Shown: positions 23,439-32,489 of the stretch, piece by piece
How the letters are laid out: each line of letters begins with the position of its first letter
How positions within the stretch are numbered: the first letter of the stretch is position 1
Source of the DNA: a bacterium
GTDB taxonomy: Bacteria > Chloroflexota > Dormibacteria > Aeolococcales > Aeolococcaceae
Assembly: GCA_021803465.1 (NCBI GenBank)
Contig: JAJZLL010000049.1
Span: 97,675-161,674, forward strand
Direction of reading: 5' to 3'
DNA: 64,000 bases
Notes under the pieces: generated by a model
Seen by the model: the letters and a program-made list of their open reading frames with translations, nothing else
What the model was told of the DNA's origin: nothing
The model's database searches: none
Translations under genes and position numbers: made by a program

Positions 23439-23822
23439 CTACTGGCCCTGTGCCCGGGTCTCGTATTCCTCATGTGTGAGGAGTGGGGTGTCGGGAAGGC
23501 TGAACGGCTGCACCCTGAGGAGCCAGCCATCGTCGTATGGGTGCGCATTGATGAGCTCCGGCGCATCTGTCAGGGCAGTATTTGTTTCAAGGATCGTTCC
23601 AGAGACGGGAGCATAGAGGTCACTTGCTGCCTTGACCGATTCGATTGTCCCAATACGCTCACCTGCTGACACCACCCTCCCCGCTTTCGGAAGATCCACG
23701 AAGATGACGTCTCCAAGCTGGGACTGGGCATGGTCAGTGATGCCCACAGTTGCTGTCTCGCCTTGTACATCCACCCATTCATGCGTCTCAGTGAACCGAA
23801 GATTGGAAAGATCACTTCCCAC
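23439..23822 (-). CDS. gcvH: Glycine cleavage system H protein
   Basis: 127 residues from GTG 23822, preceded by AAGGAGG with 6-nt spacing. The frame is open upstream but that is the gcvT C-terminus. It is the lipoyl carrier that shuttles the aminomethyl group between P, T and L proteins. The lipoylation site is K64 in 'GTIESVKAASDLYAPVSG'; 'THEWVDVQGETATVGITDHA' is also typical. Starts inside gcvT (11-bp overlap). gcvP is not in the window. Confidence 0.96.
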   Translation of the reverse strand: MGSDLSNLRFTETHEWVDVQGETATVGITDHAQSQLGDVIFVDLPKAGRVVSAGERIGTIESVKAASDLYAPVSGTILETNTALTDAPELINAHPYDDGWLLRVQPFSLPDTPLLTHEEYETRAQGQ

Positions 23823-24933
23823 GGGATTCCTCCTTGCTTTGTGTCTGGGCTCGCCGGTAGAACGGAAGGGGCACCCGTTCGGCCGTTTCCACGGTATCAC
23901 GGATGGCAATGTCATACGTAGGAAGCTTCGCATGTTCGTGGTCCACCCGAGCTGTCGCTATGGGGTATCCAAGGCTGAAGCTGAAACCGCCACTCGTTAT
24001 CGTGCCAATGCGCACATTGTCATGGAAGACGGCATTGCCGTGACGGGGTATTGTCCGACCAGAGAAACGGAGTCCAACGAAGGAGGAGTGGGAATCTGAT
24101 GCGTGGATCTGTGCAAGCGCATCGCGTCCGATGAATGCCTCTTTGCCAAGCTTCACTGTCCATCCAAGTCCTGTGTCGTATGGAGAGTTTGTCATGTCCA
24201 TGTCTGAGCCATACAGCCTGAGTCCTGCCTCAAGCCGCAGGATGTCCCGTGCACCAAGACCACACAGCCTGCCGTCATCCTCCGCAAGGAGCGAGGCACA
24301 GGCTTCCCACACGGGAAGAGCCCTGCTGCCAGGGACGTACATCTCGAAGCCGTCTTCACCGGTGTAGCCCGTCCGTGAGAGACGAACAGGAATTCCCTGA
24401 AGTTCCATGTCGACAAAGTGGAAGGGAGTGGGCTGCTGTGAGGGAGAACACCCCATTTTGCCGATGACAGCTGCAGCGCTTGGACCCTGGACAGCTATGA
24501 GCGCTGTCTCATCCGAAAGATCGGCAACGCGGATAGTGTCATCCGCATTCTGCTGCATCCAGGCAATGTCCTCCGCTGTTCTGCTCGCATTGATGACGAG
24601 ATACATGCTTTCATCCGACTCGCAGTAGACAAGGAGATCATCAATAATTCCACCAGTCTGCGTGCACATCGTTGTGTAGCAGACACTACCAGGTGTGAGC
24701 TGCAGAACGTCATTTGTGACGAGCTCATGAACCCAGATCTTTGCGGACGGTCCTGTGATGCGAACTTCGCCCATGTGGGACAGATCGAACATTCCCACTG
24801 CAGACCTGACTGCACGATGCTCATCCCGGATCGACGTGTACTGCATTGGCATTTCGTAGCCAGCGAACGCGCTCATGTGCGCACCCTGCTCACGATGCCA
24901 GAGCGTCATGGGAGTCATCTTCATGGGCATCAT
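23812..24933 (-). CDS. gcvT: Glycine cleavage system T protein (aminomethyltransferase)
   Basis: 373 residues. Transfers the methylene of the aminomethyl-lipoyl group on GcvH to tetrahydrofolate and releases ammonia. Family marks are 'FAGYEMPMQYTSIRDEHRAV', 'GMFDLSHMGEVRITGP', the 'NASRTAEDIAWMQQ' segment and 'SRTGYTGEDGFEMY'. Several N-terminal Met are possible starts (residues 1, 2, 4, 6). There is no ordinary Shine-Dalgarno; the only candidate (AGGCGA) lies within the hairpin at 24938-24966. Overlaps gcvH by 11 bp. Confidence 0.95.
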   Translation of the reverse strand: MMPMKMTPMTLWHREQGAHMSAFAGYEMPMQYTSIRDEHRAVRSAVGMFDLSHMGEVRITGPSAKIWVHELVTNDVLQLTPGSVCYTTMCTQTGGIIDDLLVYCESDESMYLVINASRTAEDIAWMQQNADDTIRVADLSDETALIAVQGPSAAAVIGKMGCSPSQQPTPFHFVDMELQGIPVRLSRTGYTGEDGFEMYVPGSRALPVWEACASLLAEDDGRLCGLGARDILRLEAGLRLYGSDMDMTNSPYDTGLGWTVKLGKEAFIGRDALAQIHASDSHSSFVGLRFSGRTIPRHGNAVFHDNVRIGTITSGGFSFSLGYPIATARVDHEHAKLPTYDIAIRDTVETAERVPLPFYRRAQTQSKEESRGK

Positions 24934-24972: not shown

Positions 24973-25953
24973 CTAGAGGGTTCGGCCCGCTCCAGTAGCC
25001 TGTGCACGGAGAGCAATCCTCTTCGGGGGCTGCCCAATCTTGCGCTTTGCAACAACATGATGCATGAGAGCTGGTGGGCAGCGACGGTAGACTGTGCGCT
25101 TTGGTCGCCTTCCTCTCCGGGGAGCTTCTGAAGCTGCAGGAGTGTCTCCCTGGCGCATTCCAGGCGTGGGACGCTTGAGGCTTACAAGGTTCGAGAAGAA
25201 CTCGTGAAGGGACGTGTTCTGCTGCACATCCGTGTCAGCCCGGAGGGCTGCAATTTCCGCATTTGGGAGCTCATGAGCACGCTTGAGGAGCTTCCGGAAA
25301 AGGGAAGCAGTCGCTTGCGCATCGCTCCAGGCACGGTGAGGATTCGTGTGCCTGGCACCAACGAGCTTCGCGAGATTCTCGAGCGTGTATCTGCCACGCT
25401 GGACGAGTTTCTTGTCAATGCAGGTTTGGGCGAGCTCCTCAAAAGTGTACTGCCCCTGCGGAATGAGGTTGCCATCAATGAGCAGCTTGGTGAGCGCAGG
25501 AAGCGTGTACGTTCCCGCCTGGATGCGCTTCTTGTTCGCAAGCAGTTCTGTGAGAGTTTCGATGTTCGGGATGGTCTCCACTGGCGTGTAGAGTTTCTGG
25601 GAGATCTTCTGCGTGTCGAAGACGATGGAGTTTTCAAAGGCTCCTTTGACTATTGCCTGGCAGAAGCCGACATCGAACGAAACACCATGACCAACGATGT
25701 AGTCATCCTTGCAGAAGTCGAGCAGAATGCGGACAGCCTCCTCCTGGGTGAAACCACCGCGCACATCCTCGTCACGGATGTGCGTGAGCGTGGAAACGAC
25801 TTCCGGGATGGGTCCGCCAGGATCGATGAGAAGGGAGAGACGTCCCAGCTCATGCCCGAAGCGATCGAATCGGATGGCGCCAATCTCGATGATTGAGGCT
25901 TTCCGTGGGTCGAAACCAGTGGTTTCGAGATCGAAGGCCACGAAGTTCTTCAT
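24973..25953 (-). CDS. DnaQ-like DEDDh 3'-5' exonuclease with 20-residue internal repeats
   Basis: 326 residues. All five DEDDh residues are seen: D8 and E10 ('FDLETTG'), D94 ('GHGVSFDVGF'), H206 and D211 ('HRAWSDAQAT'), so it should be an active single-strand exonuclease. Between ExoII and ExoIII lie near-identical 20-residue units starting with YT at residues 149, 169 and 189, plus a degenerate unit at 129. The last unit is the element normally present once. A basic tail (about 265-326, 'RRGRRPKRTVYRR') may bind nucleic acid. TACAGT lies 6 nt before the ATG, suggesting a leaderless transcript. Confidence 0.88.
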   Translation of the reverse strand: MKNFVAFDLETTGFDPRKASIIEIGAIRFDRFGHELGRLSLLIDPGGPIPEVVSTLTHIRDEDVRGGFTQEEAVRILLDFCKDDYIVGHGVSFDVGFCQAIVKGAFENSIVFDTQKISQKLYTPVETIPNIETLTELLANKKRIQAGTYTLPALTKLLIDGNLIPQGQYTFEELAQTCIDKKLVQRGRYTLENLAKLVGARHTNPHRAWSDAQATASLFRKLLKRAHELPNAEIAALRADTDVQQNTSLHEFFSNLVSLKRPTPGMRQGDTPAASEAPRRGRRPKRTVYRRCPPALMHHVVAKRKIGQPPKRIALRAQATGAGRTL

Positions 25954-25959
25954 ATGGGT

Positions 25960-25965
25960 ACTGTA
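25960..25965 (-). promoter_or_regulatory. -10 box for leaderless exonuclease gene
   Basis: TACAGT on the minus strand is followed by 6 nt (ACCCAT) and then ATG 25953. No Shine-Dalgarno is present. Geometry predicts a transcript beginning at the start codon. Confidence 0.4.
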
Positions 25966-26129
25966 CGAAAGCGATGATGCCTTCGAAAAGGGGGTGATTT
26001 TTCCATGCGGTTAATGGTAAGGTTTGATCTTGCGTGTCTCCATCGCACCCGGATGCATATCCGAGCAGTTGCGTGGTAACTCATGTGCAATGCGCCACCT
26101 GTTTTGTGATCCGTCGTATTCTTTGTGGC

Positions 26130-28643: not shown

Positions 28644-28661
28644 GCAGTGGTTGGACGAGAA

Positions 28662-31600
28662 ATGCAGTCGCAACGTCGATGGATCGCGAAGTGCATGCGC
28701 ATTGTCAGTGCATGCAGCGCCTGTGCTGCGCTCATTGTGTATGGTGCAAGCACTGCTGTTGCAGGCTCAACCACCTCCACCTTCACCACAACGACACTGA
28801 ATCCCGCGTATTACGGGTCCACCATTGAGCTCATAGCTTCGGTCACAACCGCATCGGGTGCAGCTGTCACAACTGGATCAGTCACCTTCTACAATGGCAA
28901 TGCCGATCTCGGGTCAGTGGCTCTGGATTCGTCCGGCTACGCAGTGCTCACCCTCTCAAACCTGCCAGTCGGGTCGTACGACATCAGTGCGGTTTTCAAT
29001 GGAACAGCCGCGTACAACCCCAGTGCCTCAGCGACCTTTGTTGAATCTGTCCAGCTCAATCCAACGTGGGTTGTCCTGTCAGCATCACAAGCATCACCCC
29101 CATATGGTGCTGACGAGACGTTCACTGCGCAGATTGGAACGGGAACAGGGACGGGCGCCACCCCAACAGGAACAATGACGTTCCTGGATGGGAGTGCGAC
29201 CATCGCCTCTGTGGCTGTCAGCGGGTGGAGTGTGTCCGCAACAGTGGACACACTCCCGCTGGGCAGCAACTCCATAACAGCTTCGTACAGTGGAAATCAG
29301 GGATTCGAGCCGAGCACCTCTCCAGTGACCAGTGTGACAGTTGGTCAGGCGACAGCATCCATTGCTCTCTCCTCTTCGCCTGCCTCTCCCACCTGGGGCT
29401 CTCCCGTCACCATCACAGCGGCTGCAAGTGCCCAAGGGAGCGTTCTTCCACCCACGGGTTCAGTGTCCTTCACCCTGGACGGCTCGGCTGCTGGCACTGC
29501 AACACTATCGGGCACTGGAAGCGCCAGCCTCACGCTGCCAGCATCCCTCGCAGTTGGAAGCCATGCCATTGGAGCGAGCTACGCAGGCAATGCGGACTTC
29601 ACTGCTGCCACAGCAAGCGGCATATCCGTGAATGTTGCACATGCTTCGACAGGAACAGCGCTTACTGCTTCCACGGCAAGTGCAACGGTTGGAACAGCAG
29701 TCACATTCACAGCTTCAGTGCAGCCAACACTGGATTCCACACCGCCGTCAGGGACAGTCACGTTCTACGACGGCACTTCCATCCTTGGAACAGCAGCAGT
29801 GACCTCTCAGGCCACAGCAAGCTTAACTACTGCAGCACTGGCAGTGGGAACACATGCCATCACTGCCAAGTACAGTGGTGACGCGAGCTATGCTGGCAGC
29901 ACTTCCTCCGCGTACACGGAGACGACAACCCTCATTCCGACAACTGTGTCGTTGAGCGCATCTCCCTCCACTTCGGCATATGGGACACCGATTTCGCTGT
30001 CCGCACACGTGCAGGGAAGCGGTGGAGCTGCAGTGACCACTGGGACAGTGACGTTTTCAAGTGGCAGCACTGCTCTAGGCTCTGGGACAGTCGGGACCAG
30101 TGGTTCTGCCACTCTCACGCTGTCCGGACTTGCCGCAGGTTCGTACTCCATCACAGCCGCGTACTCTGGATCCGGAGTGGATGGATCCGCCTCATCATCA
30201 GCACTCACCATTGCAGTGACCAAGATTGCCACGGGCACATCACTCTCCCTTTCCGCAACATCTGGCACGTACGGCACCATCATCAGCGCATCAGCATCAG
30301 TGACGGATGCGTCTGGAGCCGCTGTCCCGTCCGGAAGCGTCACCTTCGCAGACGGAACTACAGTGCTTGGGAGTGCATCTCTCAACACCCAGGGGACTGC
30401 GACCCTTTCTCTCGGAACTCTCGCAGTGGGCCAGCATTCCATCACGGCAACCTTCTCGGGAAATGCGAACGATGCGGCAAGCGTCTCGGCAGCGACTGGC
30501 GTGAGCATTGCGCAGGCTCCAACGAGCCTCAGCCTCACACCAAGTGGCAGCACTGTGCAGCTTGGAAACAGTGTGAGCTTCACTGCATCCCTGACAGCGG
30601 GAGTCAATGTTCCTGCGCCAACTGGAACAGTCACATTTGCTGATGGAACCACAAACCTTGGGACAGCAAGCCTGAGCAGAGGTTCTGCAACCTTCTCCAC
30701 AGCAGCGCTCGCTGCTGGAGTGCATGGCATCACTGCCACGTACTCTGGAGATGCCACCTATGGGGGAAGCACATCCGCCACTGTGGATGTCACAGTCGAG
30801 GCAGCTGCAACAACGACTTCCCTTACTGATTCTCCCTCCGCACCCATCTATGGGGAGAGCGTGACCCTGACAGCATCAGTCTCCGGATCCCAGGCAGGAT
30901 TTCCAATCAGTGGAACAGTATCCTTCCTTGATGGATCAGCTGTCCTGGGTACTTCAGATCTCACCTCGCAGGGCACGGCAACCCTGACCGTGAACAGTCT
31001 TGCGCTTGGCTCCCATCTGCTCTCAGCGCAGTACAACGGTGCGAAGGACTATCTGGCAAGCAGTTCCGCCCAGACGACCCTCACCGTTGGAATCGCAGAC
31101 ACGGCTACTGCCCTTGCTGCATCCTCCGCGACCGAGCCATTTGGCAGTGCAGTGACGTTCACTGCAACCGTGACATCACCGTACGCAGCCCCGACTGGCG
31201 GGTCTGTGACGTTCAGTGAGGGAAGCACTGCACTTGGGACAGTCACACTTGGCGCGAATGGCACGGCCTCCCTGACGACAACAGCCCTTGGAGTGGGATC
31301 CTACACCATAAGCGCATCGTTCAGTGGCGTTCCCGACTTTGCAGCAAGTTCGTCTGCCGGTGTTGCGTTCTCCGTCTCGAAGGATGCAAGCAGCACGGCA
31401 CTGTCCGTCACTCCGCAGGGCGGAACATATGGCACTTCTGTGACAATCACTGCGAATGTCACAGCTGCTGACACTCCCACTGGCACAGTCACTTTCACTG
31501 ATGGGAGTGCGACACTTGCCACTGTGCAGCTCAGCAGCAATGGTGCGTCGTACACGTTCGTGCCTGCGGAAGGGAGCCACAGCTTTGGCGCAGTATACAG

Positions 31601-32489
31601 TGGGGATGGCTCCACAAGCGGAAGCACTGCAGCAGTTGTGGCCGACACAATTGGCGCAGCCACCCCTGGCGTGTCACTTGCGATCAGTCCAGAGCCTGCT
31701 CTCGTCAATGAGCAGGTTGTCGCGACTGCATCGCTTGCTCTGCCAAATGGAGCTACTGCAGCTCCATCTGGAACCTTCGCATTCGCAGTGAATGGAACGC
31801 CAATTGCCTCCTGCGCAGCAGTTGCGCTCTCGAATGGGGTAGCCCAATGCACTGGCGTACTCCCAGTGGGCACGGATTCAATTACTGCAACGTACAGTGG
31901 CGACACAACGTACACGTCAGCATCAGCAAGCGGCAGTGACACTGTGGAAGAAGTTCCAACCTCTGTTGCCCTCACATCGGCACAGCAGTCGCTCCAGCCA
32001 AATGTGCAGGACACGCTCACTGCAGTTGTGACACCCTCTGTGACCTCCCTTGGCACGCCAGCAGGAACAGTGAGCTTCTCAGCCAATGGCACTGCCATTC
32101 AGGGCTGCGTGAACGTTGCACTTGTGAGTGGAAGCTCCACCTGCAGCTACACTGCGGGATCGCCAGGAACAGTAGCACTCACGGCAGCGTACAGCGGTAA
32201 TGGGGAGTTCCTTGCAAGTTCCGGGAGCATCAGCCTCCAGGTGGGTTCAAACCGTTGTGACCTGCCAGGGAGAGGATGGCATTTCGGTGAATTCGAGCAT
32301 CTCTTTGATCATTCCGACTGTGGCTCACAGCCTGGACGGTGTGATCTGCCACACATCTGGCAGTGCATCGACTACTGGATTCATGTGGCACTGCATGATG
32401 GTCACTTCAACAACGGGGATCATGGCAGCGAGCGTGACAATGCTGACTTCAACCGTTCATCGGGAATACACTTCCGTAGCACGCGCTAG
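28662..32489 (+). CDS. Giant secreted protein with 12 Ig-like (Big_3-type) repeats; 3' frameshift suspected
   Basis: 1275 residues as read. A signal peptide ('RRWIAKCMRIVSACSACAAL' then 'VAG') is followed by about twelve ~95-residue Ig-like repeats. Each has a 'GTVTFxDGSxxLG' strand and an 'AxYSGDxxY' end. Such repeats form extended stalks on surface adhesins. After residue ~1193 the composition changes abruptly to His/Asp/Phe/Trp-rich. The +1 frame from there (32243 on, to 32535) gives Ser/Thr/Val-rich sequence with a hydrophobic stretch and an Arg-rich end. An extra G in GGG 32243-32245 would explain this. Start ATG 28662 chosen over GTG 28647. Part of an envelope cluster. Confidence 0.8.
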   Translation: MQSQRRWIAKCMRIVSACSACAALIVYGASTAVAGSTTSTFTTTTLNPAYYGSTIELIASVTTASGAAVTTGSVTFYNGNADLGSVALDSSGYAVLTLSNLPVGSYDISAVFNGTAAYNPSASATFVESVQLNPTWVVLSASQASPPYGADETFTAQIGTGTGTGATPTGTMTFLDGSATIASVAVSGWSVSATVDTLPLGSNSITASYSGNQGFEPSTSPVTSVTVGQATASIALSSSPASPTWGSPVTITAAASAQGSVLPPTGSVSFTLDGSAAGTATLSGTGSASLTLPASLAVGSHAIGASYAGNADFTAATASGISVNVAHASTGTALTASTASATVGTAVTFTASVQPTLDSTPPSGTVTFYDGTSILGTAAVTSQATASLTTAALAVGTHAITAKYSGDASYAGSTSSAYTETTTLIPTTVSLSASPSTSAYGTPISLSAHVQGSGGAAVTTGTVTFSSGSTALGSGTVGTSGSATLTLSGLAAGSYSITAAYSGSGVDGSASSSALTIAVTKIATGTSLSLSATSGTYGTIISASASVTDASGAAVPSGSVTFADGTTVLGSASLNTQGTATLSLGTLAVGQHSITATFSGNANDAASVSAATGVSIAQAPTSLSLTPSGSTVQLGNSVSFTASLTAGVNVPAPTGTVTFADGTTNLGTASLSRGSATFSTAALAAGVHGITATYSGDATYGGSTSATVDVTVEAAATTTSLTDSPSAPIYGESVTLTASVSGSQAGFPISGTVSFLDGSAVLGTSDLTSQGTATLTVNSLALGSHLLSAQYNGAKDYLASSSAQTTLTVGIADTATALAASSATEPFGSAVTFTATVTSPYAAPTGGSVTFSEGSTALGTVTLGANGTASLTTTALGVGSYTISASFSGVPDFAASSSAGVAFSVSKDASSTALSVTPQGGTYGTSVTITANVTAADTPTGTVTFTDGSATLATVQLSSNGASYTFVPAEGSHSFGAVYSGDGSTSGSTAAVVADTIGAATPGVSLAISPEPALVNEQVVATASLALPNGATAAPSGTFAFAVNGTPIASCAAVALSNGVAQCTGVLPVGTDSITATYSGDTTYTSASASGSDTVEEVPTSVALTSAQQSLQPNVQDTLTAVVTPSVTSLGTPAGTVSFSANGTAIQGCVNVALVSGSSTCSYTAGSPGTVALTAAYSGNGEFLASSGSISLQVGSNRCDLPGRGWHFGEFEHLFDHSDCGSQPGRCDLPHIWQCIDYWIHVALHDGHFNNGDHGSERDNADFNRSSGIHFRSTR

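Follow-up and report, generated by a model that had tools for sequence, protein, structure and literature searches.

An array of 20-residue units inside the catalytic domain of a predicted DnaQ-type exonuclease

DEDDh exonucleases and the protein of this locus

DnaQ-type exonucleases are widespread, and members of this group have usually gained new properties through domains added at their ends. MrfB of B. subtilis, in the domain description given in PMC11194089, likewise combines a DEDDh exonuclease with helical repeats, which are 34-residue TPRs at the C terminus, whereas the protein described below carries 20-residue units inside its catalytic domain. For ExoX of E. coli, the substrate-binding passages of PMC3753628 assign Lys111, Tyr112, and Asn114 of the α5-α6 loop to binding of the substrate strand, and Lys101 and Arg104 of α5 to holding of the complementary strand; these residues were confirmed in the K-12 exoX translation (220 aa).

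We analyzed a 64,000-nucleotide stretch of bacterial DNA (the window), in which a gene on the minus strand (24973..25953; all features below lie on the same strand) encodes a protein of 326 aa. By sequence and predicted fold, this protein is a DEDDh (DnaQ-type) 3'-5' exonuclease, since it matches RNase_T (E 2.2e-24; 87.3 bits against a cut-off of 24), the sole Pfam family above cut-off in the open reading frame (ORF), its modeled core resembles known members of the group, and the five catalytic residues are present. The AF2 model of the core matched PolC, E. coli epsilon, S. aureus DinG, S. thermophilus DnaQ, and ExoX, with Z scores of 17-22 over 138-198 residues (VIA). Residues D8, E10, D94, H206, and D211 are all intact and invariant across a 20-row alignment, in agreement with an initial annotation of the DNA that had listed the five DEDDh residues as retained. 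The first part of the exonuclease core (residues 1-126; 25576..25953) contains Exo I (D8 and E10), Exo II (D94), and a helix ending near K120, and AF2 modeled it as a block with a pLDDT of 93-98 up to about residue 120; ExoIII extends from H206 to D211 (25321..25338). A basic C-terminal tail (residues 264-326; 24976..25164), with 16 Lys/Arg against 2 Asp/Glu, is predicted by AF2 to be disordered. The last 52 residues of this tail gave an 88% match to the sister species and weak matches only elsewhere, and its stretches RRGRRPKR and KRKIGQPPKR presumably recall AT-hooks. The PADLOC DEDDh model also matched the protein (1.2e-30), as expected of any DEDDh, and no cas genes were found among the six neighboring ORFs scanned.

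ExoDinG was the best-matching family among class relatives (the DinG of the source genome, G000:C2), and S. aureus DinG was matched with a Z of 21.9 over 198 residues. Unlike ExoDinG, the window protein is not fused to a helicase, as Pfam detected no C-terminal SF2 helicase domain and the ORF stops at 326 aa, and it contains an insertion that is absent from all aligned DinG-type domains. The PolC exonuclease domain was the best Foldseek match and shared the top Z (22.2 over 174-175 residues), but the window protein has no polymerase part and, again, carries the insertion. ExoX shares the fold (Z 19.4 over 159-160 residues) and the catalytic residues, and it lacks the insertion. The protein also departs from MrfB, in that its repeat is internal with a period of 20 and no TPR match was obtained in Pfam at E 10. 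In NCBIfam, the DNA polymerase III epsilon family model (TIGR00573) reached 59.8 bits against a cut-off of 71.5, and every one of the 25 models listed remained below its own cut-off, the best being the PolC model, far under; this failure concerns the curated models and not the function. Two further RNase_T loci are present in the source genome, the DinG (C2) and a 269-aa frame (C46). In a tree of 23 core sequences, the window protein grouped only with its sister (100/100), and L026 and L030, the two remaining stand-alone members of this family, had long branches and positions that the tree did not resolve.

The insertion and its repeated units

Alignment with 18 insertion-free relatives located extra residues between the helix that follows DT113-114 and the YTL element, with MAFFT breaking the insertion gap into two pieces around a few loop residues. 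The insertion (residues 127-187; 25393..25575), missing from the relatives, lies between the helix on the Exo II side and Exo III and consists of three units, which are followed in the same register by the native YTLENLAKLVG helix. Without residues 127-187, the core stretch comprises 168 residues, as in most relatives, the range among the 18 relatives from class genomes being 166-169; the net insertion therefore amounts to 61 residues, to within one or two, which equals three units and one further residue.

When residues 121-204 were compared with themselves without gaps, a period of 20 scored highest (BLOSUM62 sum 55, 18 identities over 64 positions), and 1000 shuffles of the same residues reached at best 20 over periods 5-44, with a mean of -13.5. 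This period corresponds exactly to the unit starts proposed in the initial annotation (residues 149, 169, and 189, and residue 129 for a weaker copy). Unit 1 (residues 129-148; 25510..25569) is the weak copy, and its head lacks Tyr-Thr; unit 2 (residues 149-168; 25450..25509) is the best match to the profile of the native helix; unit 3 (residues 169-188; 25390..25449) is identical at the protein level in the sister species. The native element before ExoIII (residues 189-200, YTLENLAKLVGA; 25354..25389) completes the series. At the protein level, the copies starting at 149 and 169 share 7 of 20 residues, those at 149 and 189 also 7, and those at 169 and 189 share 5, while the weak copy at 129 shares 6, 6, and 3 with those at 149, 169, and 189, respectively. 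Position 6 of the unit is Leu in all four copies, the Tyr-Thr head and a Gly at position 19 each occur in three of the four, and positions 3, 10, and 16 are mostly hydrophobic.

The 60-bp DNA period that the initial annotation had described is weak. Copies of GTGTA lie at 25385, 25445, and 25505, spaced by 60 bp, where the 5-mer represents the TAC-AC of the Tyr-Thr codons, and a fourth occurrence at 25586, 81 bp off, corresponds to Y122, outside the array. This recurrence alone is weak evidence for a repeat, because the 5-mer is over-represented throughout the window (74 observed against 39.6 expected from dinucleotide shuffles). The units are identical at 25-32 of 60 bases, and Tandem Repeats Finder, at a score of 30, detected no 60-bp array. 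Given this low identity in DNA, the 3-7 of 20 residues shared in protein, and the absence of an array call, the duplication that produced the units appears to be old.

Mapped on ExoX, the insertion enters the α5-α6 loop, by which ExoX holds its substrate strand, according to alignment A4 and to the part of the ExoX structure paper that describes this loop (PMC3753628). In this alignment, Tyr112 of ExoX fell on Y189, for which the Tyr counterparts in the units are Y169 and Y149. The KYSN of ExoX lies beside RYTL (188-191), so that the Lys-Tyr of its strand-binding loop before α6 aligns with Arg188-Tyr189, with a small ambiguity in that Lys111 is one gap from R188. The unit heads TYTL (148-151), QYTF (168-171), and RYTL (188-191) echo the Tyr-Ser/Thr of ExoX, and a basic residue matching Lys111 is absent from units 2 and 3, that is, from two of the three Tyr-headed copies.

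Origin, predicted structure, and conservation of the array

The units may have arisen by duplication of the native element. A 13-position profile of this element, derived from the 18 relatives without the insertion, scored 11.7 at the native site, 10.9 at unit 2, 0.95 at unit 1, and -1.3 at unit 3, and among 2000 shuffles of the inserted residues a fraction of 0.0005 reached the score of unit 2. Unit 2 therefore resembles a duplicate of the native element, with units 1 and 3 tied in through the 20-residue period. The profile does not prove that all units descend from the native helix, because units 1 and 3 score low and an unrelated core site at residue 33 reaches 9.4. Of the earlier proposal that the array grew from the substrate-binding helix, the location between the catalytic motifs, the proximity to an ExoX-like substrate-binding site, and the resemblance of the units to the helix before ExoIII were supported.

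Structure prediction, which the initial annotation had suggested, gave a helical array and not a regular element of the DEDDh fold; the outcome it had named as speaking against its reading, a standard fold insertion seen in many DnaQ proteins, was not found. In the full-length AF2 model, the array region contained helices at 131-139, 152-160, 171-180, and 191-197. The placement of the array relative to the active site is not fixed by this model because residues 121-190 had a pLDDT of 44-72, against 85-98 for the core block. When residues 122-204 were modeled alone, from an input of two sequences, helices were predicted in register at 131-140, 151-160, 171-180, and 191-198, with a block pLDDT of 82-89 over approximately 132-181. 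Both models therefore predict one short helix per unit. An LRR-like reading of LTKLLIDGNLIP was dropped, as both models formed helix over most of that stretch. Foldseek searches of PDB folds with the isolated array model yielded no match at E 0.001 and none under E 6.9, which does not imply a novel fold, and its best VIA match, at a Z of 2.3, was one chain of 66, the FADD DED, which is not evidence of kinship. A Pfam search of the insertion at E 10 returned at best DUF2911 (0.0086, with the sister sequence), under the cut-off, and a sequence search of PDB returned five matches, none with an E value better than 0.04 and the best three being designed helical repeats, which do not constitute evidence of kinship either.

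The array is so far known, from sequence searches, in two closely related species of one genus. Whole-protein searches matched 57 of 61 genomes, with full-length matches in two, the source genome and a congeneric one. At the level of the class, a 134-residue query covering the insertion region matched 26 of 110 genomes, only G000 and G001 over the whole query, and a profile of the array (A2) matched two of 400 sampled genomes of the phylum, both from the same genus. In the source genome, a 52-residue query matched only itself. A scan of genome contigs returned 22 stretches and two relatives, with only the sister record, and not the Bacillota record L022, at full length. Sequence searches did not find the array in viral contigs or plasmids; among phages, 56 records matched, none over 80% of the query, and none of the three that were translated had the insertion. 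No description of such an array was found among the open-access papers listed for DEDDh/DnaQ proteins with insertions or with tandem or helical repeats.

The comparison of copy number across relatives, also suggested earlier, supported the claim that the element before ExoIII is normally single: all 18 aligned relatives (alignment A1), among them the stand-alone exonucleases L026 and L030, carry a single such element and lack the array, and the sister protein, 91% identical, keeps the same number of units. Within the insertion (codons 125-188), the two species differ by 9.5 amino-acid-changing and 36.5 silent differences (proportions of 0.065 and 0.79), and omega is not quotable here because silent sites are saturated. 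Unit 3 showed 0 changing against 13 silent differences, and unit 2 was the most changed (6.5 changing). For comparison, the changing and silent proportions were 0.014 and 0.37 in the core (1-124), 0.010 and 0.89 in codons 189-232, and 0.088 and 0.62 in the tail. The retention of unit number at saturated silent divergence, with few amino-acid changes, indicates that the array is old and selected, although conserved less tightly than the catalytic core. It is a genuine and conserved variant of an enzyme type that is very common.

Possible roles of the array and its genomic context

We tentatively favor, at somewhat less than an even chance, a stand-alone relative of the DinG and PolC exonuclease domains; in this enzyme, in-frame copying of the loop and helix before ExoIII would have given three extra 20-residue units, forming a helical arm that guides the strand. 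Each unit, a short helix and a turn, would help to build a small arm at the α5-α6 loop, beside the strand entrance, while the 3' strand would be trimmed by the usual two-metal chemistry. By extending the surface beside this entrance, the arm would most likely guide or retain the strand, or possibly dock a partner; this function is what we infer, and the basic tail could supply non-specific affinity for nucleic acids. A clamp over DNA, which had been considered in the initial annotation, is not favored because the insertion is near neutral in charge (7 Lys/Arg against 6 Asp/Glu in 61 residues), and units 2 and 3 lack the basic counterpart of Lys111.

Possible too, and almost as likely as the strand-guiding arm, is a protein dock, in which the array would be a short solenoid that binds a helicase, SSB, a polymerase, or a second copy of itself and leaves the strand untouched. 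It owes this standing to the neutral charge of the array together with its regular hydrophobic positions, and it is consistent with the strong conservation of unit 3 and with MrfB, whose C-terminal TPR domain accompanies a DEDDh exonuclease and whose TPRs are termed scaffolds in the relevant passage of PMC11194089. However, the insertion is located at the strand-binding loop and not at a terminus, and the six neighboring ORFs scanned (GcvT, GcvH, a methyltransferase, a histidine kinase, an Ig-like protein, and an acetyltransferase) point to no partner.

More doubtful is a multiplied substrate grip, in which three in-frame copies of the strand-contacting loop-helix would make up an alpha-solenoid of 20-residue units with one helix each inside the catalytic domain, which would meter or retain the strand and thereby alter the processivity of the DnaQ fold; if true, it would be a new way to change processivity in this fold. 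A conserved array within the catalytic domain, apparently derived from the substrate-holding element, would be a natural experiment on the evolution of substrate handling. A near-neutral spacer, that is, a past expansion that folded harmlessly and was kept since its removal would break the fold, seems improbable: the occurrence in one genus only, the unit without a Tyr-Thr head, and the low AF2 confidence in the full-length context would fit it, but the equal number of units in both species despite saturated silent divergence, with few amino-acid changes, argues against it. Although both genomes are draft assemblies and at least one is a MAG, an assembly or sequencing artefact can be practically dismissed, as it is refuted by the second genome, with its extensive silent differences and a frame that is open in both.

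Between the two species, silent changes are rare at the 5' end of the gene (25774-25953, codons 1-60), affecting 8 of 57 same-residue degenerate codons, against 16 of 20 for codons 181-200. The two DNA sequences were 92-97% identical at 25773-25972, including the leader just upstream, and 73-80% identical over the 3' half. Local recombination could explain this low silent divergence, as could an overlapping or regulatory element; neither Rfam searches nor RNA folding of the conserved 5' part yielded a convincing result.

The exonuclease gene lies 39 bp upstream of gcvT, which is followed by gcvH on the same strand. Together with gcvT and gcvH (23442-24933) it may form an operon, the functional link not being obvious. 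Elsewhere in the neighborhood, the ORF at 28647-32489 contains 12 stretches of Big_3_5 (a bacterial Ig-like domain) and adjoins a HAMP/HisKA histidine kinase, and these two genes are adjacent in the sister contig as well.
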